From contig OX344751.2 in assembly GCA_947034885.2 (NCBI GenBank), positions 186,001 through 250,000 on the forward strand: a stretch of DNA of 64,000 nucleotides, given 5' to 3'. Shown piece after piece: positions 3,025 to 63,718 of this stretch (the stretch's first letter is position 1; each line of letters begins with the position of its first letter). The translations under genes and the position numbers were made by a program. The notes under the pieces were generated by a model. It saw only the letters and a program-made list of their open reading frames with translations, made no database searches and was not told where the DNA came from. The stretch is from Thuidium tamariscinum (lineage: Eukaryota; Streptophyta; Bryopsida; Hypnales; Thuidiaceae).

Positions 3025-4234
3025 GTTTTTGAACCGCTCTTTATATTTTCTATTGTATGGAGTATTGGAGCAAGTTGCGACAATGATGGAAGAATAAAAT
3101 ATGATACATATATGCGAGACCTCATATCTCATGTTGATTTGAAGGAACCACTTCTCAATGAATGTAGTTTATTTGGAGCTCGTTACAATATTCATACTTA
3201 TGAATGGGAGGAGTGGTTTAATACAATTCCACCTTTCAAATGTGATCCTAATCAACCATTTGCAGAATTAATCGTCCCAACTGTGGATTCTATTGGTTAC
3301 AAATATGTTGTGCATCATTTAATAATGATCTTTAAGCACATATTGTGCATTGGTGAGACAGGCACAGGCAAAACATTAATAATACGGGACAAGCTGCTAA
3401 AGTATTTAGATCAACAATTTATACCAATGTTCATCAATTTTTCAGCTCGAACTGGTGCAAATCAAACACAAGTAAAGCATTCATTATACATAATTCCTTT
3501 GAAAATTTAAAATTACCGTGTATTCATTCCATTGTTGAAAAAATTTGTGTTTTTGATGGAATTTATATACATTTTATGAATTTAATTTAATATGAAAATA
3601 TTTTCTCAAATTTTCAAGTTGATAATTTTTCTAGGATTTAATTGACTCAAAAACAGAAAAACGACGAAAGGGCATATTTGGTCCGCCAGCATTGAAAAAA
3701 TATGTCATCTTTGTAGATGATGTGAATATGCCCCAAAGAGAAAAGTATTTTGCCCAACCACCTATTGAAATATTACGACAATGGATGGACCATGAGGGTT
3801 GGTATGACCGCGTACCTCCATGTGCATTTCGAACATTGGTTGATATTCAATTTATTGGATGTATGGGACCTCCTGGTGGAGGTCGTAATCCTGTCACTAT
3901 GCGCTTTTTGCGACACTTCAACTTCTTGTCCTTTACGGAAATGGCTAATGAAAGTTTATTTTTAATCTTTTCTACTATTTTAAGTGCAACTTTAACTACT
4001 GCATTTAATCAAGAAATTCAAAGCTGTAATGAAGGGATTGTAAATGGAACAATAGAAATATATAATACTATTCGACAAGAACTTCTTCCAACTCCTGCAA
4101 AATCTCATTACACATTCAATTTACGAGATCTCAGTAAAGTTATCCAAGGAGTATTGAGAGCAGACCCATCAAATTGTAAAGAAAAAAGAGTGATCATTTG
4201 TCTTTGGGTGCATGAAGCTATGAGGGTCTTTCAG
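3025..4234 (+). other. Dynein AAA2 tail and AAA3 module (exons 1-2 in window)
   Basis: Exon 3025-3471 opens with [10 protein letters not shown], the hallmark at the AAA2-AAA3 junction, and carries the AAA3 Walker A GETGTGKT (about residues 110-117 of the window-encoded part), ending [10 protein letters not shown]. Exon 3635-4234 carries the Walker B FVDDVNMP, the [11 protein letters not shown] loop, RFLRHFN and the [18 protein letters not shown] block that closes AAA3. Nucleotide binding at AAA3 is regulatory in dyneins; both Walker motifs look intact. Confidence 0.95.
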
Positions 4235-7200
4235 GTTTAGGCTCTTCATTAATTCATTTTGATATTGTTTTTGGATGTTTATCACAATATATTTTATTTT
4301 GTGTAAATTCAAATTTCTAGTATTATTATCTATCATCACTGCCATGAACTGCGAATTGTTTGAGCAAGACATTCAATTGACTATTTATAACAATACTATT
4401 AGTGGTGAATATTTTACTATCTAGTGTTCATTGTAATTAAAGAATCTAGGTTATAACTAATTTTCTTTTCGTCTAGGCCACACACTATAGGCAAAATCTT
4501 CACTCACCCTTTTATTGTCAAGTATGCAAATTCGTAAACTATATAAAGTTCCTTACATTCTAGCTTATTGACAAATACCTTTTGACTCTAGCTTAGGAAG
4601 TCTTGACTCAACAACATATTTTTTTTAAATAAAAATAAAAAATGATAAAATTTTCTCATCTTCAATATATAATAAGTTATTGTATTTAACTCCTAAGGGA
4701 TCATTGTCCATTCAAGGGATAAATAGAATTTGGGCAAGTACCTAAGGTTCGAATTTTTGTCTTGATTTTTTAAAACTTTTTTGAAGATAGGAAAGTTGAT
4801 TATCTTTGAGGAAGTATCATTTTTTTTAAATTGATGCCTAAGAACAAAAAGATGTCTAAATAAGCTCAAAACATAGAAGAGGGAGAAGTCCAAAAGAAAT
4901 TTAGAATTTAAATTTTTTAAAAACAATTATTTCATAGATTATATTTTTGTCTATGTGAAAATTCTTTGATTCATTTCATTTGGATTTGGTTTGGGAAAGT
5001 TATGGACAATCTTGTTTTTTAGGGCAATTTCATCATCTTCTTGAAAAAATAACTTATAGGATTCATTGATGAATGCAATTTTTATAGTTTTTCTAGGTTA
5101 AAAAAATACCACCTGGTTTATTTTTCTTTCTAGAACAATCTCAACATTTGGATTGGTGAATTTAAATTCAATCTTAGAGATATTAATAATTTAGATTTTC
5201 CTCTTATCTTATACCTACTTCTATTGAATAATTTCTTAGAGGATAAAAAAAGATTTTTTATTATATTTTTTCTAGACTCTAAACTCAATTCTCCACTATA
5301 AAGATTTAAAGCTCAAAACTCTAGAGTGCAACACATTAAATTTAATAAGCTTCAAAGTCAAAGAATGTAGTCTTGCAATGTTTTGAAAAACTTCTTTTTT
5401 ACACTTTAAACACAAATATCTTGCAATCTATAGGGTCAATTTTTTTTCTTTTTAATTTCACTTGCTCATACTAGTTGTGTTTATAATACTATGATTAGAT
5501 GTGCAAAAAAGACAATTTTCAGATTTTTTACTCTTTGATATAGAAATGGTAGTATCAAGTGATTTTTTTTAAGAAAATGGCCTTGGTCCCTTAGGAGTTA
5601 ATATAAAGGTAATGAATGCCAACAAATTCTCTTTGGACAGGCATCCACATCACTGCTAAAAACCCTCATCAACATCAAAAGATCAAATTCTCTTATTTTT
5701 TAATTGAAATTAAATTCCCTATGTAAAAAAACCCATAATGACCAGGTAATTTATTGGAATTCTTTCAATATGTTGGCACATGAACAATATCACAATTCCA
5801 TAGCTAAATTGACTTTCAAAACCTCGTGCAGAACATTGTAAAATCAAATTATTTCATTCTAAACATTTTGAAAGTCAATCAACAATTTAGAATTATTGTG
5901 CTTTTACCCCTCAGGTCCCCTGAATCTATTTACTCCAAAAACAATTTTTTTTAAAAGTCATTTTTAGTACCAATACCAATTAAATTTTTTTTTCAAGATT
6001 TCTAATCGTGAGATCTTGTAATAAATTGGTTTGAAAACATGTGTAAAAAAATTCAGAGTTTTCCATCATGTAGATGGCAAGATATTAGCATTTGGATGTT
6101 CAAAAATAATTTCTTAACCCTGCAGAAAACAGGGCTACTGCACTTTAGAAGGCTAAAATCATATAAAAAATGGTCCAAAATGGTTGTGCTTCTTGGGATT
6201 CATTGTTGAAGCCAAATAAAGTAAATGCCTACAAATTTCAAATTATTTGGAATTGTACAACACACATGAAAAAATAATAAATAGAAAGAAGTAACAAATG
6301 ATTGAAAATAAAAAATTGCTAAGAATTTATTTAAGAAATTGAAAAATGCCAATCCCAATGGTTGCAATGTTGTAATAAACAATCTATATCCTATGATTTT
6401 TTTTTAATATTGAAAATTGACTAAAATTAAGGACTTCAAAGTTTATTTTAGAGTAGAGAACCCATAATTGCCTACAAACCAAAAAACCTCATAACTTTTG
6501 ATTCATTGATCAAAACAGAATGATTCAAAGCTTTCTATGCATACATAATATTAGGCCATAAATTTTTATTTATGTTTCCCAAATGTCGTGATTTGTATGC
6601 GTGGCATTAAATCAGTCCTATGAAGACCCTGAGTTTACCACAGAGGTAAACGCTGAAATTTTTAATCTTTTGCATAAGTTTTTTTTTCAAATTTTGAGTT
6701 CATATTTGGCATCAAAGGCCCCGAATTAGTTGAAAGAGAGTCAAACATAACCAAAAAACTCAACAAAAACACAAACTCAAAACCTCAATCAACCCCTAGT
6801 AAAATGAGATTTATCCTCCTGGAGCCACGTTCTACCCCTCTATCGCACCTTCAAGGGATTGATTTAATATCTTGCAATTTTTATTACATATGAAAGATAT
6901 TCTTTGTTCTCCCACCTTCTATTAAAACTTGTGCCTGAAACATGGAAATCTCAACATACTTGCCCAAAATTGCTATGTTGCCAAATTTAGCAAGCTAGTC
7001 CTTTAGGGATTAAAATATGCATTTCAAAAATATTAATAAACTTAGACCTTGACATTGATAGTAGAACTATAAATACTTCTCCAAAAGTGTAGATGAGACT
7101 AGCTACAAAAATCTTATTCACATCCTATTAGCTAAAAAAAATTCATATCAATAGGACTAAAATAACTCCACCTAGCTTTGCCAAAACCAATAGTACCTTT

Positions 7201-29000: not shown

Positions 29001-32000
29001 TAATTTCTTAAACAATAAATATTCAATGGGTTTATTAGAAATTATTTTGAAGATTTTCAATTAAACGTTTCAACTTCAAGTTTCTTAACTCAATATTAAT
29101 AGAAAAAATGCTTAAATTAAGAATTTTTAAGAGCCTTAAAACTTAGTAAAGGAAGGCGCAGATTTTTTTTCTTGAATTAAAATGCAAATATCTTATTTTC
29201 TATAAGGTTAGGGTTTTTAGAATTTTCTCTAAAGTTTTTAATATTTTGCATTAGAAATTACAATTTCGAGTGGAATTTCATGAAATAAAGGCTTTAGGAC
29301 TTTAAAATTACACCTTTAAAAATCTTGATCTAAAACTATAAATTTAAAAGTTGAAAATAGAAATAAAAAAATATCTAAAGATATTTTGAATTTGAATATT
29401 AAAGTTTCTTAAATTGTGAAAACTTGTATTAAAAGTTTTGAAAATTATCTCAAAAATCTTCAATGTGATAATTAAACTAAGAGTGTACCATATGTTGTGA
29501 CAAAGCACTCTTTTAGTAGAAATCTCTCAATTTCAAACAATTGAAATTTATCTAGTTTTTTTTTCAAGGGTAGGCTAAATAACTTGGGTTGTTTTTTTAT
29601 CCATAAATTGTCCTCCACTTCAACTCTAATGTCCAATTATTGTAAAAATATGCTTAAGTTCTTCAAATATTGTATTTTTATATATTAGAATTAATAATTT
29701 ATATACAAATCATAGCGAGAAAACTTCTAAAATTGAATAGATTAGTATCAAGAAGACTTTTTAGTTTATTTTTAAAATTTATTTAAGAATTGTTAAGAAA
29801 TATTCTAGATAATATCTTTCAATCCTACAAGTAAAATAGAAATAATTCTAAATTTTTTATCATAATCATCTTACCTTACCTTTTTAGAGTCAATTTTCCT
29901 ATTACATTGAATAGAAATGATCTAATTATTATAAATATGGTCATAGTTATCCTAACCTATATAAGTTTAGTTTTGATACAAATTAAAGCATGCGAATTTT
30001 TTAAGGAAACTTTGATTTATTCATCTATTATATTGTATACACTTCATTTTTTGTAATCAAATATTATATTAAATAGGACATTGAATATTTTATTTAATAA
30101 AAATCTCAATATCAGGATTAAAAATTTCAAATGAAAATATATAAAAGTAACAAATGATGAAATCTATATTAATGTGTATTGGTTTATTGAATAATCTTTG
30201 ACTATATAGATAAGAATTGATAACTAGTAAGAAATTCATATTGACATGTTGAAAAATCTTATTATTTGGAACTTTAGAACTATTATTGATTTCATTAAGT
30301 TTTTGTACTTTTTAGGCTATAAGTAAATTGATAGTTCTTAGTACAAATGCCTAATGACTTCAAGTGAGCTCAAATGTCATAAATTATTCATGATGCATGT
30401 ATTGATTTGTTTGGTCACTTTCTTCACATTATTTTAAATATCATAATGCTTAAATTATTTTTCTAGATCATGAGTTAATTGAATCATCATATAATTTCAT
30501 TTATTTATTTCAAGATCATATAATATTTAAGGGTATTTTTCATAGATGCTATAGTGGACCAATTTTATTCCCATAATGCATCTATGTAGAGTGTAATATA
30601 GTTAAAATTTTGAAAATCCATTAAATTTTTTGAAAATCCATTAAAATTTTTGGAAATTAAACTTGTCATAGATTTTTCAGCACAAGCTAGAAGCTAGAAG
30701 GGCTAGGATCTTTGTGAAATTCTAAAGTTTTGACTCATTGGAGATTTTTTTTATTTTGTCAAATTGAACTGAGTACATTATAGTATGAAAAAATCTTTGA
30801 ATGTATATAAGAATTGGTTGTTTCATTTTAAAATCAATAATAGCAAATGACTAAGACTTTATATTTCTTCAATTGTAGGTTGTAGAAACACAAGGTTATT
30901 ATTTTAGTGATTCTGGCATCTTCAAAGTGCCTGAAGAAGCAAGTACTTGTGCATCATATTTGGCATATATTCGAGAACTACCTTTGGCACCTAAACCTGA
31001 GATATTTGGTCTCCATGAAAATGCTGATATCACATGTGATCAAAATGAATCTTATGATCTTTTTGGAAGTGTTTTATCATTACAGCCTCGAGAGCAAACA
31101 AAAGGAGGAGGAATGTCACGAGAAGATGTAATTGAAAAAATGTGCTTGGAAATACAATTTGCAACACCACAAGTATTTGATATTGTCTATGTGTTGCAAG
31201 AATATCCTACTATGTATGAAGAAAGCATGAATACTGTCCTTACCCAAGAATGCATTAGATACAATGGCCTTCTTAACATCATAAAGATTTCTCTAAGAGA
31301 ATCATTGAAGGCTCTAAAGGGTTTAGTAGTTATGTCAAATGATCTTGAAATGCTAACAATTAGTGTATTTAACAACCAGGTATACTTCAATATTTTACTA
31401 GTATTAAATCTAATGCAAAATTGATAGATACAAATATGAATATTTTTATTTAGTCTAAACGATGTTGAATTAAGCCAATCAATTAGCAGATATATTTATG
31501 ACTTTAATAGAAATTTACTATTATTTTGATAATTGATAAAATCATTCAAAATTTTCATGTTAAAATAACAAGTATGGATCTAGGAATTAGGGAAATTACA
31601 TTTAGTTTTACTACAAGAGTAAGGGGTGTTTTAAGTGAGATTTTAAGTATAGTCCTAGGCATCACGTTACAAGTAATGATTTTGAAGGCAATTTTTAGCA
31701 GAATTTTACTGAAAATATATGTATTTTTAGTAAATGTTTGCTGAAAATTGCCTTCAAAATCATTACTTGTAACGTGACGCTTAGGACTATACTTAAAATC
31801 TCACTTAAAACACCCCTTTCTTTTGTAGCGTAGAGATTTCTTACTTTAGCAAAGCTTTATTACAATCAAATAACTGCAACTCAAAAATAAATTCTGACTA
31901 ATCTATTACAGGTTCCAGAAATGTGGCAAGGAAAAGCCTATCCTTCACTCAAACCTCTAGCATCATGGGTAAAAGATTTGCTTGAAAGATGTGATTTCAT

Positions 32001-54626: not shown

Positions 54627-56544
54627 CCCTTAAGCAGCTTTGTTTTTATGGAAGAGAAGAAACTAGCTTCTTTCACGGAAATGTGAAGGCTCATTGCATT
54701 CGACAGGAGATATATAGTGGGGGGATGTGACCGTAAGATCTTCAAGAACTCGCTCCTCCCTGTCCGCAGACACAAGCCATCGCTAGAATGGTTACTTCAA
54801 TTTGTTGAGCACGACCTTTGACCACAACATTGTGGCCGTTGACTTCATTGGGCAGAGCTAATTTGGCTGCCTGTCTTCAATTTCTATTCCACTTTGGAGG
54901 TCCAAAGAAATTTCTATAGTACTATATGGAAAATGTGTATGTGTTGAGCGTGTCTTTCCTTTTGATGCCCTTCTTCACAGTCTTGTGCAGTAAGTGTTGT
55001 TAGTCTAGAAGTGACAGAATTTGCCGGTGTTGTAATTGGCTTGCTCTCACGGATGTGCACTACAGGTTCAATGTTTCTTGAATGTAAGGAATTCTGCTAC
55101 GTCATTCGGGAGTGCTTTCTTGCGTATCGGCCATGTCACTAGTAAGTCATGTCTATAAGGAACTGGGCATGTAAAACATCATTAGTTGGAGGAGACATGT
55201 GTTGGAATGACTATGGATTGTACAGTGCACAAGTAAAGAGAAGAACGTTAGAGCTGTGCCCCTAACTGAAAACCTTCTAAAAATCAGAAGACACATGCAG
55301 TCAATGAGGTCTTGTGGGGGCAAGTAGGTCTAAATGAAGTTTGCATGCATGCACCAATTATGAATGTCGATGATTGCCGTTCATGCCTAAAGAAATTACT
55401 ATTGTTTACAACGTATTTTCAGTTATGCATCAAATAACAACACACTCATCATGCACTGGTGATGTGAACTAATAGATCATTGAACTTGTCATGAATAGAG
55501 AGAAAGTGAGAATTTCATGGAATGTGTTGAAGAAGTAGTTGGACATGGAACAAAGGTTGAACCTCTCAGACAGAGGATGGAAGAAACGAAGTGCTCGGAG
55601 TGAAGTACACTCAATTTGTACGCCTCATTCCAATTGCAGACCATGACAAGGAACAGAGGCCCTAATGAATGTGTCACAGAAGAGGTAGGGAAGAACAGTG
55701 TTGTATGCTTGAAGATTTCATGTGTATGTGATGATGGGTGTGAGTACTATCTACAATTTCCATAGTACTATATGTAAAATGTAGGAGTGCTGTGCAAGAT
55801 TATCAGTGCACATTTCATGAATGCATGTTGTATGAAGACAGCTGAGAGTACGTTCAGAGCATTGGAGACATACAAGAGTGACTGTCAAGTTTCTAATTTT
55901 TTAATCAAGAAATTCAATGAGCAGATGACCACCGTCACCTAGAGAACTCATGCATGAAATTATTGAATGTACTGCAAGCCACATTACTACGCTCATAGTA
56001 GTGAATTGAAGTTGTGTAACGTAAAAGTAATCTAGTGACGACGTACATGCATTCAAGCTCCAAGCGCCATAGTTGTTTTGAATGAGTATAAGAAGTTGTA
56101 ATGCTTTTAGGCAAGTGATAAGTGTCCATTTTGTACTGAGAGCTGCCAAGTGATTCATAATGATCATTCTGAAGAATGAGTTAGGTGGCATTTCTTCCTG
56201 ACACCTTTAATAAAAAAATAGCAATTCACTATAGGGAGTGACGTCACAAAGTAATATAGGTAGATGTTGCTCGAGTAGTGATCAAGTTTCCAAAATTTTG
56301 AGAAAGTGGGCAATATTGTAGCAATGGGCAATGAGAAATTTCACCTCTATAAGACATATGGTGCTTCAAAATTTTGTGGAAAAATATTGGGAACAGATTA
56401 GCAGGCATTTCTCTAAGTGTGAAGTACAGAAGTGGGCTAGCAGCATCCATAAAAATCGGTGGATGAAAAACTTCTCTCAAGATTGAGATATTGCTCATCT
56501 ACTCTGTTCATCGTCCAAAAAATGGACGCAAACCCGCTTAAGGG
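54627..56544. mobile_element. Large TTAA-bounded element, 1.9 kb, with unusual interior (family B ends)
   Basis: TTAA (54623-54626) plus CCCTTAAGCAGC on the left and AACCCGCTTAAGGG plus TTAA (56545-56548) on the right; a TCCAAAAAATGGA hairpin lies just inside the right end. The interior is richer in GC and unlike the ~0.9-kb copies, without recognisable protein domains on either strand. The phrase ATAGTACTATATG occurs twice (~54917, ~55761). It may be a larger relative or a copy that captured other DNA. Confidence 0.7.
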
Positions 56545-56548
56545 TTAA

Positions 56549-57109
56549 TTTGGGGGACTTGAATTGAAGAAGGCCATTTTTGAGTATACAATTTTGAATA
56601 TGTAATTTAACTATTCAATTTTTTTATGTGTTGGTTTTGCACAACAAATGAAATGAGATTTTTGAAACATTGTGGCCATGGTGTGCAAAGGCATTATTGT
56701 TGTTTGACATTTTTTAACACATTTTCTGGGATTTTTTCCCTGTAGGCTTGAAGTTGATGCTTTTTTTAGGCAATTAGGCATTGAAAGGCCTAAAATAAAC
56801 TTTGATGCATTATCCCATTTCATGTTGAAAGACTATAACCCTAGTATCAATATCATCATTTGTATAAAATAAGAAAAAGGCACAAAGTAACCCTACACCG
56901 AATGGTGGAAGTGAAATCCTTTGCCAACGGAGAGTGTCGTTCGTTCGAAGAGGCCTCGATCATACCCTGTCCAGGGGATGATCTGCTCCAGGGTATTGGG
57001 AGGAGGATATCTCCAGGGTTCTCAACCACGCCGAGGCAGGGGAAGGCGGGTCAAGAGTTCCTCCCAAGGCAATGCATTTTGTTCGTCCCTCAGTTAACTT
57101 CCTCAAGCT
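56549..57109 (+). promoter_or_regulatory. Upstream region of the NDUFAF8-like/RMC1 pair
   Basis: The DNA shifts from AT-rich to clearly GC-richer at about 56900, marking the start of the transcribed region. The only space for a conventional promoter serving both genes is upstream of 57110, or inside the first gene. An open frame from 56860 to 57324 has no recognisable domain and is probably leader or intron sequence. No core promoter motif is claimed. Confidence 0.4.
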
Positions 57110-58077
57110 ATGGCCGGCGAGCATGGCCGTCCCTTGCCGTCGCCCTTCAAGACTGTCTTCCTCCGCTGCTCCCCCGCCGTATGCTTGCTTTACTCCCACC
57201 TTCCTTTAGGTTCACTCTGCGTTTGGCACAGTTTATGTTCTTCTCTGGGTCTGAGTCTGGATTGATTGGGGCGGCTATCCAGAACTGGATTGATTGCATG
57301 GGGGATTCTGTCGCTGGTGCTTGACCATGAGCTGTGGCATCGCGCTTCGAAGGCGCTGGAATACGATTCCTAACCGTGTCTGGGCTGGACTTGGTTTGGT
57401 TGTCGTCTCTTCTCTTTGAAATTAATTTCCTCCTCCGGGTTTCTCATCGAGCGTGACCTAGGATCGCTGTGATTCTTGTGTGTTGTGAGGCTCTTCCATT
57501 GCGGCGGTGGAAGGCCGAGCGATGGCGTGGATTGGCTGATGGATTCCTAGTTGGGTATGGAACGGATGGATCGGTTGCTGTGAGAATGGCGCTGGGTGCT
57601 TTAGCATGCACGGACTGAATGAGGTTCTGGGTTTCGTGGACCTTTTTCGATGTGCCATGACTTCGCTGACGGGTTCTCAATGAGTGTGGTGGACGAGCTC
57701 GTTGGCGCTCTGATTGGATTTGTCCGCGAATTGAACAAGGGGGGATGGGTGATCATGTTGGCAGATGAGAGCATACGGTCAGTGTGTGGCCACCAAAGTG
57801 CCCGCTGTGGAGAAAGGCATGTGCGAGAAAGAATTTTTGGTGCTCAAAACTTGCATTCAGAACGCGGTGCGACCCCTCCCTCTGCCTTCTTTGTCAGACC
57901 TTTTTCGAAAGCTTGCCTCGTGCAGAATTCTTTCGATGTCGTGTTGCAAACTAGGAAGTAGAAATGCCAATGGGAATTCGTAATGCGCGATCCAGTGGGT
58001 GGGCTGGGATGCATGAGAGAGACTGCAGCAAGTGACGGCGTGGCTGTGGCTCTGTGACGCAGGCCAAGAAAAAGTGA
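57110..58077 (+). CDS. Twin-CX9C mitochondrial protein, NDUFAF8-like complex I assembly factor (61 aa, 3 exons)
   Basis: Exons 57110-57178, 57765-57866 and 58063-58077 join in phase 0 to 61 residues. The middle exon encodes AYGQCVATKVPAVEKGMC and EKEFLVLKTC. Together with Cys20 from exon 1 the pattern is CX9C-X12-CX9C, the twin-CX9C fold imported into the intermembrane space by the Mia40 route. The AYGxC spacing, the C-x-K/R-EF-x-ALK-x-C helix and the short basic tail AKKK match NDUFAF8 (C17orf89), which in animals works with NDUFAF5 in complex I assembly. Exon 1 and the 15-nt last exon are inferred from donor/acceptor positions and family spacing. The alternative is reading on from the middle exon to a stop at 57983. 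The stop codon is 16 nt before the RMC1 start codon, suggesting a shared transcript. Confidence 0.72.
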
Positions 58078-58093
58078 TAGGGAAGAGTTCAGG

Positions 58094-61000
58094 ATGGGAC
58101 TCGCTGAGGGGGCTTCGTCGAGCTCCGGGGGCAACAGAGGCTTGGGAGCCGGAGGGGCAAAATCACACGCCTATGTCCAGTACCCGCCCTTACGATGCGA
58201 CATTCCAGGAGCTGCAGGTGTTATGTACGATGATGGTAATAAACTTCTGCTTGTGCCAGCGCCGAATAAGGTGATCCCTCCTCCCTCGCTCACATGGACC
58301 ACATTTGAAGAGCTTCACAGTTGTTCGATTCGCAGAGTGTCGGTCATGATTTAGTATTATCCCATCAAAATAGCCGTGGAGGAAATGAATCTTTTGGGTT
58401 TTAATTGTGTAATACCTTGGGACCCATGTCGTCAAGAATCTTTTGGTGAGTAGTCACTTAATCAACAAATGGTAATCTTGAAACCCAGAGCCCACGACAT
58501 GGTAATCCAATCTTATCCATCGAGAGGTACGATTTTTAAGTACACGATGAAGTACATGGTATTCGCATTAGCATCAAACCTACGAAATAATAGTGCATCA
58601 GACAATACGTAGAATGCTAACCTAATCGTTACGCCCATATGTGCTTGTTTATTTAAACATATTTCAAATCTTTCGTAGGTGTATTCATGGCCTACAAATC
58701 AACACCCGCCTGCCGAGGCCCCTGGGGTGACCACCATCAAGGAAGGGCCTATTCTGGGAGTCCGGTATTCGTTGGATGGGAAGCTCTTAGCTGTACAGCG
58801 AACCAATCAAGAGATCGAATTTGTAAATAAAGAAAGTTGCACTGGATTCAAGCAGCAGTGCAGGAGTAAAGCAGATCGGATTCTGGGTTTTTTTTGGACA
58901 GATTGCCCTTCCTGTGATATTGTCTTCGTTACCACAAGGTACGACTCGGTTCGCATTTTATCTCCTCAAGGCCTTCTCATGATGCTACGTAGGTAGTGCT
59001 GGTAACAGGCAGAGCACATTGATGTACCACTCTACCGTATTGTGATTTGTGTACACCAAAATAGTGCCTTTCTGCAAAAAACAGTGTGAATAAACTGTGG
59101 TCGAATTTGCATGGATCAGCGGGTTAGAGATGTACACCCTGTACCTGAGTAAGAATGGCTTGAAGCTGGTGGAGTACAAGAAGGCACATGTGAGCTGGTA
59201 TGTGTACACACACGAGAGTCGTCTCGTACTACTTGCGTCGGGCATGCAATGCAAAACACTCTCTGGTTATCAGGTGACCTATCTGTCCCTCATCATCTAT
59301 CATATTTGGACCTAATTGTGACATGTGCGTAAATGATCGCTTGATTTCTATACGACAAAGTCGAGAGGCTTTATAAAATGATTTCATGCTTAGTAAACCT
59401 GCCGAGAGTGCACTAGACTTTTCTTACTGAGTTTAAAAGATGGTTATTGTGATTGGTGTGCTGCACAGTTTGCCGCAGGGGGAATCGTGAGGCTGCCAAA
59501 GTACGATGTCACAATGTCCAAGCATGAATCAAATCGCAAGCCTGTGCTAGCTCCTGAAGATATCCGAATCGCTACCATGTAAGAGCTTGTTTTCAGGCTC
59601 AGTTGATGCTTTGTGTATCAATGAACTGTTTCCTTCAGCAGTTTTTTATATTATTTACTGTATCAAGGATTAGGTCCTTTTTGTCTATGCTAAGAGTAGT
59701 ATTCTTAACCTCTGTGCCAGTTGAAAACTGAGAAGATTTGCGACCAGTACAGTTGTCGGTCATAAGCTGTTGCCATTGTTACGAGGAACGGTCGAACATT
59801 CCATATTCGATCATTTTTGGACAATGTTTTTGGTTATAAAGTTTCCTTGTTGTCGATTCTTCGTTGAGAATCCTTGAGATTGTGAAATTGGTGTAGGATT
59901 TAGGTTCATTAGAATATAAAGTCTATTGCCTGATTACACGAATGTTTGGACAGGTATGGAAGACTTTATTGCGTACAAGTGGACAGGGTAGCTTTGCAAC
60001 TGCACATGTATCGGTTCTACAGGGACGCTGTTGTACCTCAGGTAGATCTCTGAAGAACCTTGTGGTGATCATCACATTATTGGAACGCCTCTTCTTTCTC
60101 CCGATCTTTACAATTCAAGAGCTGGGGTCCGTAAGCTGTTTGGTGGTCCGACAAAAATGAATGAAGTATGTTTTTCACGTGCAGTTTAGTATCATCGACT
60201 TCAAGTGGTAAACGATTGTTGTACTGCTGGGTTCACGCAAAGCCTCTAGGTTGAATTTATCGTTTTCCCTGTCCACCTTTGTGCTCATGCGTAGCCGAAT
60301 AGAATACCTCTCAGAGATTCGTCGTTAGACCAATTCGTTGTCTCTTTTCAGGGACTGCTGCGCTTTTGGTCGGCCCTGCTTCTTCTCTTTTGCATTCCGT
60401 GTAATAATCTTGCGTCTCAGTTCGAGACTTTCAACCTGCATCTAGAGGTCTGTTAACATTGCCATTTGAAACCATGACGTTCAGCTGTCCACATCATGGT
60501 TTTAAGTATTCTGTGAACTAAGTTTATTTTCACAATGTTCTAAACAGCTTATGAGGATGATTCTGGAGGATGGTGATTGAATGTACTTACTGGTGGTAAC
60601 CTTTCATACTAAAGTAGTATGATCATCGGTGAATTAACCCAAGTACAACATGTTGTACTTATCTGAAAATGGTTTTCTGATGTGGTTACAGGGATCGCTG
60701 CCTATATTTTCCCCGGATGTGGCAATTAGTGTAGTTGACAATGTGCTCATGGTTCATCAAACGGATTCTCAAGTAGTTCTGCTGTACGACATTATGACAG
60801 ATCCTAAGGGTCCAATCTCTGCTCCTCTTCCACTTCTTCTTAGGGGGGCTCCTACCCTGTCCGCTTCGTCCTCTCAGAGCACAGAGAAAGGGTCCAAGCG
60901 GAATTTATCGTCTGAAGAATTAACAATGTATGGAGAAGGCTGGGTGTTTATAAATCCAGACCTTGTGTTGGACCACATGCATGGTCTTCTTTGGCGTGTC

Positions 61001-63718
61001 CGGCTTGATTTGGAGGTACCTTGACTAACGCCGGTCGTGTTGCCGATTTTGACGAGACTATTTTAAATAAGAGATTGATTTATCTTTTCAGTCGCAGTTT
61101 CTTGAACCTGAGTAAGAAGAATACGCTGTGTATAGCTTTACTCTTTAGTTCATATCGGATAGAAACATCATATTTGTTTTCACTGTTTCTTTCCTTCTAG
61201 AACTTCTACTGGCAGATCACGATAGTTTAAGATGCAACTGGGTTCTTTTTTAAATGATATTGTTTGTTCTTAATACTGTTCTTTGTGCCAAGCAGACAGT
61301 AGCTGCTAGCTCATCAAATCTACCATCGTTGCTTTCCTTCTTACAACGTCGGAGATTTGAAGCTCCTAAGGTCTGGTACACAATATTTCTTCATAACTGT
61401 TTTAACCTTCTAGTTTTCGCTTTTCTTGGATTTGAGTTTATGGAAGACTTGTGAATGCTAGTTGTGTTACTTGCTACTGACTGTGTCTCCTTGCCCGTAT
61501 GTGCTATCGTCGGGTGCCGCTTTAAGATGGCTTTTGAGAGTGTGGCTCTACTTTTGCAATGTGCATACGTACATTCACTTTTGCTTTCTACTCACCTGAC
61601 CACATGTTGCAAGAAAACAGGCCAAGGAGCTCTCACTGCTCGTGATCAAGTCCATGATAATGGAACATCGACCTTTGCCTTCGATTGCGTCTGCTATGGA
61701 TGTGGTAACGGCTTCCTATGCCCAAGCTTTGCGGCCACCGGCTGGGACTGGTGGTTCAGGATATCAACCAACACAAGCTTTCAAGTCTCCTGCAGGGGCC
61801 TCGGGTGGAATCACTTTAAGTGCAGGACCTAAAGGTGTGTTCGTAGGTATTCTTCGATAATCTTAGTTATTTGGCTCATATTGGGAGAAACGCAGAAAGT
61901 GTGTCGGGGTGTACTCTTGTTGGAATATGAGCCTCACCAGCCATTACCTTTCCCTGGATTAGTCACTACAGATTCTTGCAGTTAAATTTGTTTAGTCATC
62001 TTGATTCTTTGAGAATATTTGCGTATTGTGGATATAGGCCCTGATCTTGGAAGATTATCTGCTGTTTTGCCAGCACCTTTGACTGCAACTCCTGGAATGC
62101 AAGCATCGGGTTTGCAATCTTCTTTCAATCCTCTAGGGAAGGATATGGGTAAGACGAAGACGCATGAATTAGAGGAGGAGGCTGACCTCGCATCAGATCC
62201 GGAGAGCAGCATCAGCTCGGAGATTGAAGAGCCGCCTTCAACATCTCCTCGGGAGCAGTATTCAACTGCAAGTAGCAGCAGCAGGTTAGGGCTTCTATTC
62301 TAGTTAATGAAGTTAACGAGATTTCTATCCCTTTCGTTGTTGCTCATTGGGTTTCAAGTCAGGAAATCGTTGTCAAAACCGGCGATACTCCTTGGAGACT
62401 GTGCTATTGAAATTATGCAGGGACTCTGCTTAGCTTGGATCCTTTTTAGTATTGAATGTTTGAAGTCTAGCAAGTTTGCAATATTGTTGTTCTTGTTGGA
62501 TGGCCTTGGTCTTTGGGTTTGTCTTCATAACTAAACGTGGATGGTTCAATGTAGTAGTTTTAAATAAGCACTAGTTCAATTTCTATCTTGCAGGGCTATT
62601 AGTAGGGAGGGAAGCAAAGGTAGTGTCCTGGAGTCCTCAACCGCAAATAGTCCATCTACGTTAGGTTCAGGCTTACAGGGGCTTCGGATGGGACTACCTG
62701 CACCTTTTATATCACCAGAAGATGTGCTGCAAAGTGTTTTCCTTGCCATTGAAGAGGAGATGGGTACAGATTCTACATTTTTGATTTCAGCCATTGTGGA
62801 GTACATGCGCAGGTAAATGTCTTGGATGTTAGTAGAATACATCAACTGCATTCTTGCTTGTTTGTTTATTTAGGACATGAGTTTGAATACATAATCTATT
62901 GATCAGGACGATTCCTTTTGTGGAAATGGACAATCTAATCATTGCATGCTCGTCTTCTTGCATCAGCACATCGAAGGAAAATGTGCGCGTCCCATCAGGA
63001 CTGCAAGCCTTACTGGTCCAGTTGCTTGGCCGTGATGAGAGATACCATGAGCTTCGACAGTTCGTAGCTGGAAAATTGATCGATCCCTCCAGAGTAGTTG
63101 CTTTGCGACTATTGGATGTTGGAAATAGCGACGTTGAAACACGGAAAACTGGAATGGAAATGTTGAGACTTCTTCATGCTCACTCTGATTATGTGAAGCT
63201 TCTCTTGCAAGATGGGCGACTACTGGAGGGCCTCCGTTACATGCGACAGAACAAGGTTTGAGGGTCTAACATAATTCTTTCCTCGCGTATGTTTCAATGT
63301 ACTGAATGAGGAGCTCGTCTTTTAAGCATTATTCTCAGTGTTATCCATGCGTCTCTCAAAGAGAGTTTTGAGAGAATAATGTATGTATGTCACACTTCTC
63401 TAGCAGATTAAAAAAATTTGAAGACTCTTTTTAGAAATGTGCAGAGTACTCTTCATTCGAAGGTTTCTACATGTCTCTTTACTCGGTAAAACTTTTTGTG
63501 AGGACAGATCTTTCTCAAACTCTTCTTATGTTCTGCAGGTGGATGCTATTCCTCCGGCCATGTTTCTAGAGGCTGCTGCGGCCACCAATGATATTCAGAA
63601 GCTTTCGTCCGTTTTCCGGTTTTTCTTAGATTTTTTGCCAGGTTTTCAACAGACACCTGACTTCAGCTTGTATTCATCACGCTTGAACCAACAGTGCACT
63701 GTTGGAAATGGCTTTTGA
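58094..63718 (+). CDS. RMC1: RMC1 (Mic1/C18orf8) - regulator of the MON1-CCZ1 Rab7 GEF complex
   Basis: Twelve exons, 58094-58270, 58679-58938, 59120-59273, 59469-59578, 59954-60041, 60692-61015, 61296-61370, 61621-61834, 62038-62284, 62594-62812, 62907-63255 and 63539-63718, join in frame to 798 residues, near the usual plant length. The N-terminal half is propeller-like: PLRCDIPGAAGVMYDDGNK, LGVRYSLDGKLLAVQR, DRILGFFWTDCPSCDIVFVT and SVVDNVLMVHQTDSQVVLLYD are conserved RMC1 segments. A low-complexity, acidic and Ser-rich linker (about residues 470-570) precedes the C-terminal Mic1 helical domain (FLISAIVEYMR, LQALLVQLLGRDERYHELRQF, DAIPPAMFLEAAAATNDIQKL). RMC1 is the third subunit of MON1-CCZ1, which activates Rab7 on late endosomes for fusion with the vacuole; it has no catalytic site. 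The ATG is the first in-frame Met in the visible exon, has A at -3 and G at +4, and lies just after the NDUFAF8-like stop. Introns here fall in all phases. Confidence 0.94.

Follow-up and report, generated by a model that had tools for sequence, protein, structure and literature searches.

How are two proteins produced when the reading frame of the second opens 16 nucleotides (nt) after that of the first has closed, on the same strand? The question is raised by a stretch of 64,000 nt from the moss Thuidium tamariscinum (assembly GCA_947034885.2, contig OX344751.2, positions 186,001 to 250,000; the whole stretch is referred to as the window, and all positions are positions in it), where a small spliced gene for an NDUFAF8-like protein directly precedes the gene for RMC1. 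As a whole, the locus is probably best explained as an HG8 dicistronic locus, with the NDUFAF8-like protein and RMC1 made from one unit. HG8 is homology group 8 of the upstream open reading frames (uORFs) that encode conserved peptides, with At3g12010 as the Arabidopsis main open reading frame (ORF); it was described by Hayden and Jorgensen in 2007 (PMC2075485; this and the other papers are cited from excerpts). A sequence-only reading of the window had placed a twin-CX9C protein of 61 residues, with its stop at 58075-58077, ahead of an RMC1 ATG at 58094 on the same strand; these coordinates and the 16-nt gap agree with what we found (Table 1).

The splice model of the small gene is based on its sequence and on the match to the family. 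Both introns are of the GT-AG type and in phase 0, and the spliced gene encodes MAGEHGRPLPSPFKTVFLRCSPAMRAYGQCVATKVPAVEKGMCEKEFLVLKTCIQNAAKKK, a protein of 61 amino acids (aa) with the pattern CX9C-12-CX9C, closed by a tandem TGA-TAG stop in frame. In the spliced mRNA the RMC1 AUG lies 202 nt past the first AUG (remainder 1), so that RMC1 is read in a frame different from that of the small ORF. With RMC1 exons joined by hand, Pfam domains RMC1_N (E-value 6.5e-32, 110.5 bits against a cut-off of 27.3) and RMC1_C (E-value 2.4e-29, 103 bits against a cut-off of 26.9) were identified.

The land-plant members of HG8 have a CHCH peptide of 59-62 aa in which 9 residues separate Cys 1 from Cys 2 and Cys 3 from Cys 4, and 11-15 residues separate Cys 2 from Cys 3; one intron lies behind the third residue that follows Cys 1, the other behind the fourth residue that follows Cys 4; and every land-plant example seen by the authors lies 5' of a Mic1-like ORF (PMC2075485). 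The Thuidium small ORF has 61 aa, and its Cys 2 and Cys 3 are separated by 12 residues; the introns, with splice sites assigned by sequence, interrupt it at CSPA/M and CIQNA/A; and the ORF that starts 16 nt beyond its stop on the same strand carries both RMC1_N and RMC1_C. As the Cys spacing, the length and both intron positions fit a published eukaryotic family exactly, and the RMC1 domains of the downstream ORF score far over the Pfam cut-offs, the small gene is more than a chance ORF. The conserved intron position also argues against another end of the small ORF, at 57983, which had been considered in the sequence-only reading: it would be the product of retention of intron 2 (frame 57753-57983).

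Table 1. Positions in the window of the features of the NDUFAF8-like/RMC1 locus
Feature	Position	Strand	Remarks
TATA match (TATAAA/TATAWAW), candidate shared promoter element	56863..56869	+	Only match in 56500-58093 (+ strand); upstream of both ORFs
NDUFAF8-like (HG8) exon 1, from ATG	57110..57178	+	Last residue is the third beyond Cys 1 of the twin CX9C; intron placed as in PMC2075485
AUG in another frame within exon 1 (A at -3, G at +4), opening an overlapping 19-codon ORF across intron 1	57123..57768	+	Stop 57766-57768, 129 nt of mRNA before the RMC1 AUG (by arithmetic)
NDUFAF8-like exon 2	57765..57866	+	Carries Cys 2, 3 and 4; ends 4 residues past the fourth Cys; intron position as in PMC2075485
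Small-ORF portion of exon 3	58063..58077	+	Encodes AKKK and the stop (TGA 58075-58077); under the dicistronic model, continues through the spacer into RMC1
Inter-ORF spacer, 16 nt, TAGGGAAGAGTTCAGG	58078..58093	+	First codon TAG is the second in-frame stop
RMC1 (Mic1-like) coding region, multi-exon, ATG 58094	58094..63717	+	Pfam on two hand-joined parts; 63717 belongs to the last open frame inspected and does not mark an established stop

Both ORFs have been reported on a single mRNA in other land plants, and the HG8 locus is known from collections of complementary DNA (cDNA) and expressed sequence tags (ESTs), with a Physcomitrella EST in the HG8 sequence list (PMC2075485); a paper of 2012 classed HG8 among putative or probable dicistronic transcripts (PMC3426882). 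We infer that the Thuidium locus is transcribed as other land-plant HG8 loci are, and it is most likely that the small gene and RMC1 share one mRNA. One transcription unit would give a spliced mRNA with two ORFs, the first yielding a mitochondrial protein with twin CX9C, orthologous to NDUFAF8, and the second RMC1, a subunit of the Mon1-Ccz1 exchange complex for Rab7. None of five motifs resembling poly(A) signals was matched from the first ATG to the RMC1 ATG. What the sequence-only reading had called a candidate dicistronic locus is thus probably carried on one mRNA, in line with the published HG8 cDNAs and ESTs, though it is no novelty. The pairing that it had considered unexpected was already in print as HG8 (PMC2075485); with the land-plant arrangement known since 2007, the Thuidium locus adds one more case to those described.

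As for the products, the small protein is NDUFAF8-like, and its sequence points to a plant orthologue of NDUFAF8 with a presumed function in plants. In a single pairwise comparison with human NDUFAF8, 16 of 37 alignment columns were identical (E-value 1e-7), and the disease-associated human Phe55 (CAREF) aligned to Phe47 (CEKEF) of the small protein. The human sequence used in this alignment was checked by its length and its six aromatic positions, all of which are consistent with PMC7042492, where human NDUFAF8 (formerly C17orf89) is a twin-CX9C protein of 74 aa whose loss lowers NDUFAF5 and complex I. A human sequence of 74 aa was also placed in group 8, with human EST evidence that this ORF stands alone (PMC2075485); judging from length and similarity, it would be NDUFAF8 itself. 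In Metazoa, the Mon1-Ccz1 exchange complex for Rab7 has RMC1 as its third subunit (PMC7239660).

Several observations weigh against explaining the locus in this way. The top Pfam match of the small protein alone, PF16860 (CX9C; E-value 0.0009), reached 19.6 bits, below the cut-off of 26.4 bits, so Pfam by itself would not place the protein, and a search of PDB sequences gave three matches with E-values of 0.29 or worse, none of them NDUFAF8. Were the 5' untranslated region to begin close to the TATA match and to be unspliced, scanning would be complicated by three AUGs (56902, 56978 and 57072) that lie between this match and 57110. The first AUG of the small ORF, at 57110, is in a strong context, with G at both -3 and +4 (contexts were judged by these two positions alone, not by a matrix for Thuidium), and there is no depletion of AUGs ahead of RMC1, with 3 in 199 nt against 2.7 expected; together, these two features disfavour simple leaky scanning of the kind known from green algae. 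Finally, the equation of Arabidopsis AT3G12012 with the HG8 small ORF of At3g12010 is a presumption from the adjacent locus number. The protein AT3G12012 itself has been detected by mitochondrial proteomics: it was found in all six digests of a deep proteomics study, which cites a mitochondrial location for it (PMC11142381).

The frame opened by AUG 56902 (C at -3), followed by arithmetic, stays open for at least 196 codons, across the two splice junctions and beyond the start of RMC1 (window 56902-58273). It matches the frame of neither protein and presupposes an mRNA start near the TATA match at 56863 and an unspliced leader; possibly it is due to chance.

If the two genes had separate transcription starts, the RMC1 promoter would lie inside the small gene, e.g. 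in intron 1 or 2, and transcripts of the small gene would end early. Such an arrangement would sit well with the strong first AUG and the lack of AUG depletion, as well as with the G+C content of introns 1 and 2 (0.52 and 0.54), higher than in the four 250-base steps at 56000-56999 (0.34-0.40); still, it is disfavoured by the presence of both ORFs on land-plant HG8 cDNAs and ESTs. There is, moreover, no TATA match within 57110-58093 (though many promoters are TATA-less), and with 16 AUGs in intron 1 and 6 in intron 2 an unspliced internal leader would be free of AUGs only if begun after 58013, the last AUG of intron 2. We regard separate starts as an improbable account of the locus as a whole. 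Alternative splicing, which the sequence-only reading had proposed as a way of choosing between the two proteins, fails in its nearby-acceptor form: use of the acceptor at 58092 (CAG) yields a CHCH protein ending in QNADGTR and a stop, and RMC1 is not freed. Pyrimidines occupy 4 of the 20 positions before this acceptor and 10 of 20 before that at 58062, a weak measure given that the acceptor of intron 1 itself has only 7 of 20. Other isoforms, such as those with exon 2 skipped, are outside that result. Skipping would reduce the small ORF to 27 codons with one Cys and bring AUG 57123 into frame with RMC1; the product would be an N-terminally extended RMC1, MAVPCRRPSRLSSSAAPPPPRKSDREEFR-MGLAEG..., and the start of the extension, basic and rich in Ser, looks by eye like an organelle-targeting peptide. 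One could then imagine a switch that directs RMC1 to an organelle each time production of the complex I assembly factor fails, which we hold to be exceedingly improbable. We rejected the fusion of AUG 57123 with RMC1 as a signal: the frame is open, but an open in-frame AUG arose also in 35% of 20,000 random versions of exon 1 with synonymous codons (with an assumed third-position G+C of 0.55).

Given the dicistronic mRNA of the HG8 explanation, it has to be asked how ribosomes would reach RMC1; the excerpts of the HG8 literature contain no account of how the second ORF is translated. From 57110 up to RMC1 the spliced mRNA has four AUGs: the start, 57123, 57765 and 57819, the last two being Met codons in the frame of the small protein. 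Around the RMC1 AUG the sequence-only reading had correctly seen a strong context, A being at -3 and G at +4. Leaky scanning might have left its mark in a shortage of AUGs, a sign that we rejected on the counts given above; in 5,000 codon shuffles the mean number of AUGs before RMC1 was 2.87, and 79% of the shuffles had no more than the 3 observed.

For the translation step alone we lean, tentatively, to leaky scanning with or without a bypass via AUG 57123. Most ribosomes would make the small protein, and a minority would pass its AUG; some of these could initiate at 57123, terminate after 19 codons and reinitiate at the RMC1 AUG 129 nt further on. This mixed route is possible, and AUG 57819 intervenes on it. 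At this step a separate start site or isoform for RMC1 is rather unlikely, and some further mechanism would be a very slight chance. Classical reinitiation, in which ribosomes complete the 61-codon ORF on the one mRNA and restart 16 nt on at RMC1, would be helped by the good context of the RMC1 AUG and, at first sight, by the short spacer. Reinitiation, however, declines with the length of the upstream ORF and with short spacers, so the 61 codons and the 16 nt of the Thuidium locus both tell against the claim of the sequence-only reading that the layout suits it. In green-algal bicistrons, taken as a set, the first starts are weak and AUGs are depleted before ORF 2; leaky scanning is supported by mutation, and a stronger first start gave less ORF 2 output, as fits leaky scanning (PMC11892635). 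Direct reinitiation after the small ORF is thus unlikely in our view. A different role for the peptide, chiefly that of a regulatory uORF acting in cis to repress the translation of RMC1, with no function of its own, would be in keeping with its having been first catalogued as a conserved-peptide uORF (PMC2075485); we think it very unlikely.

We looked for copies of the locus in the Thuidium genome itself (363 Mb, 19 contigs). A six-frame search with the small gene gave four matches at an E-value of 0.001 or better: exons 1 and 2 of the locus in the window, and two diverged copies of exon 2 on contig C1; exon 1 was matched only at the window locus. The C1 copies (L002 1449-1704 and L003 1665-1489) comprise exon 2 together with the adjoining ends of introns 1 and 2, with 85% and 88% DNA identity. 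Since flanking intron sequence is included, they are copies made at the DNA level; the BLAST alignments in these 3.1-kb loci do not extend to exon 1, to exon 3 or to the start of RMC1, and in the L003 copy Cys 3 and Cys 4 are changed. The copies are probably non-functional fragments, and the search gave no sign of a second intact gene. One C-terminal exon of RMC1 (122 aa), searched in the same genome, was matched only at the window locus. A pattern search of prokaryote genomes gave 71 matches, with no relative among them.

Elsewhere in the window, pieces of dynein heavy chain extend over 3025-31424 (+ strand), with AAA_7 and lid domains at 3025-4240 and Dynein_C at 30879-31424, as identified by Pfam in three open frames, which may or may not belong to one gene. 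Such pieces would fit a plant with swimming sperm.

The locus is a case of a conserved two-ORF arrangement of land plants, with an inter-ORF spacing short enough to be easily tested. In plants, a single message may serve to produce both a mitochondrial protein and an endolysosomal regulator, and a knock-out of one ORF may affect the other as well; where a phenotype of an insertion or CRISPR line is credited to one of the genes, effects on both need to be checked. What is added here is modest: the naming of the pair as NDUFAF8-RMC1 and a locus that lacks the leaky-scanning signature of green algae. A search of the literature gave no paper joining NDUFAF8, uORF and plant, and we claim the NDUFAF8 naming as new in print no further than that search goes; in the excerpts of PMC7106846 the term HG8 matched merely longer HG numbers or ranges, with nothing specific to HG8.

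Compared with the published HG8 loci, the Thuidium locus is alike in the size of the CHCH peptide, in the four Cys with CX9C spacing, in both intron positions and in the Mic1-like ORF directly 3' on the same strand; it differs only in organism and in detail, namely the 16-nt spacer with tandem TGA-TAG, which other HG8 loci may or may not share. The 2012 paper gave the main ORF as GDF15/TGF-beta (PMC3426882), whereas Pfam identifies RMC1 domains here. We think that this label stems from two genes sharing the name Mic-1/Mic1, and NDUFAF8-RMC1 is the better name for the pair. With human NDUFAF8 the small protein shares the twin CX9C, at 61 aa against 74 aa in human; the human group 8 ORF stands alone by its EST evidence (PMC2075485), whereas that of Thuidium lies 5' of RMC1. 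The green-algal bicistrons are similar in having two ORFs per nuclear mRNA and a short inter-ORF region (14 nt in an endogenous example; PMC11892635). Unlike them, the Thuidium locus has a strong first start, with G at both -3 and +4, and no depletion of AUGs before the second ORF, and so lacks the leaky-scanning signature of the algal loci.
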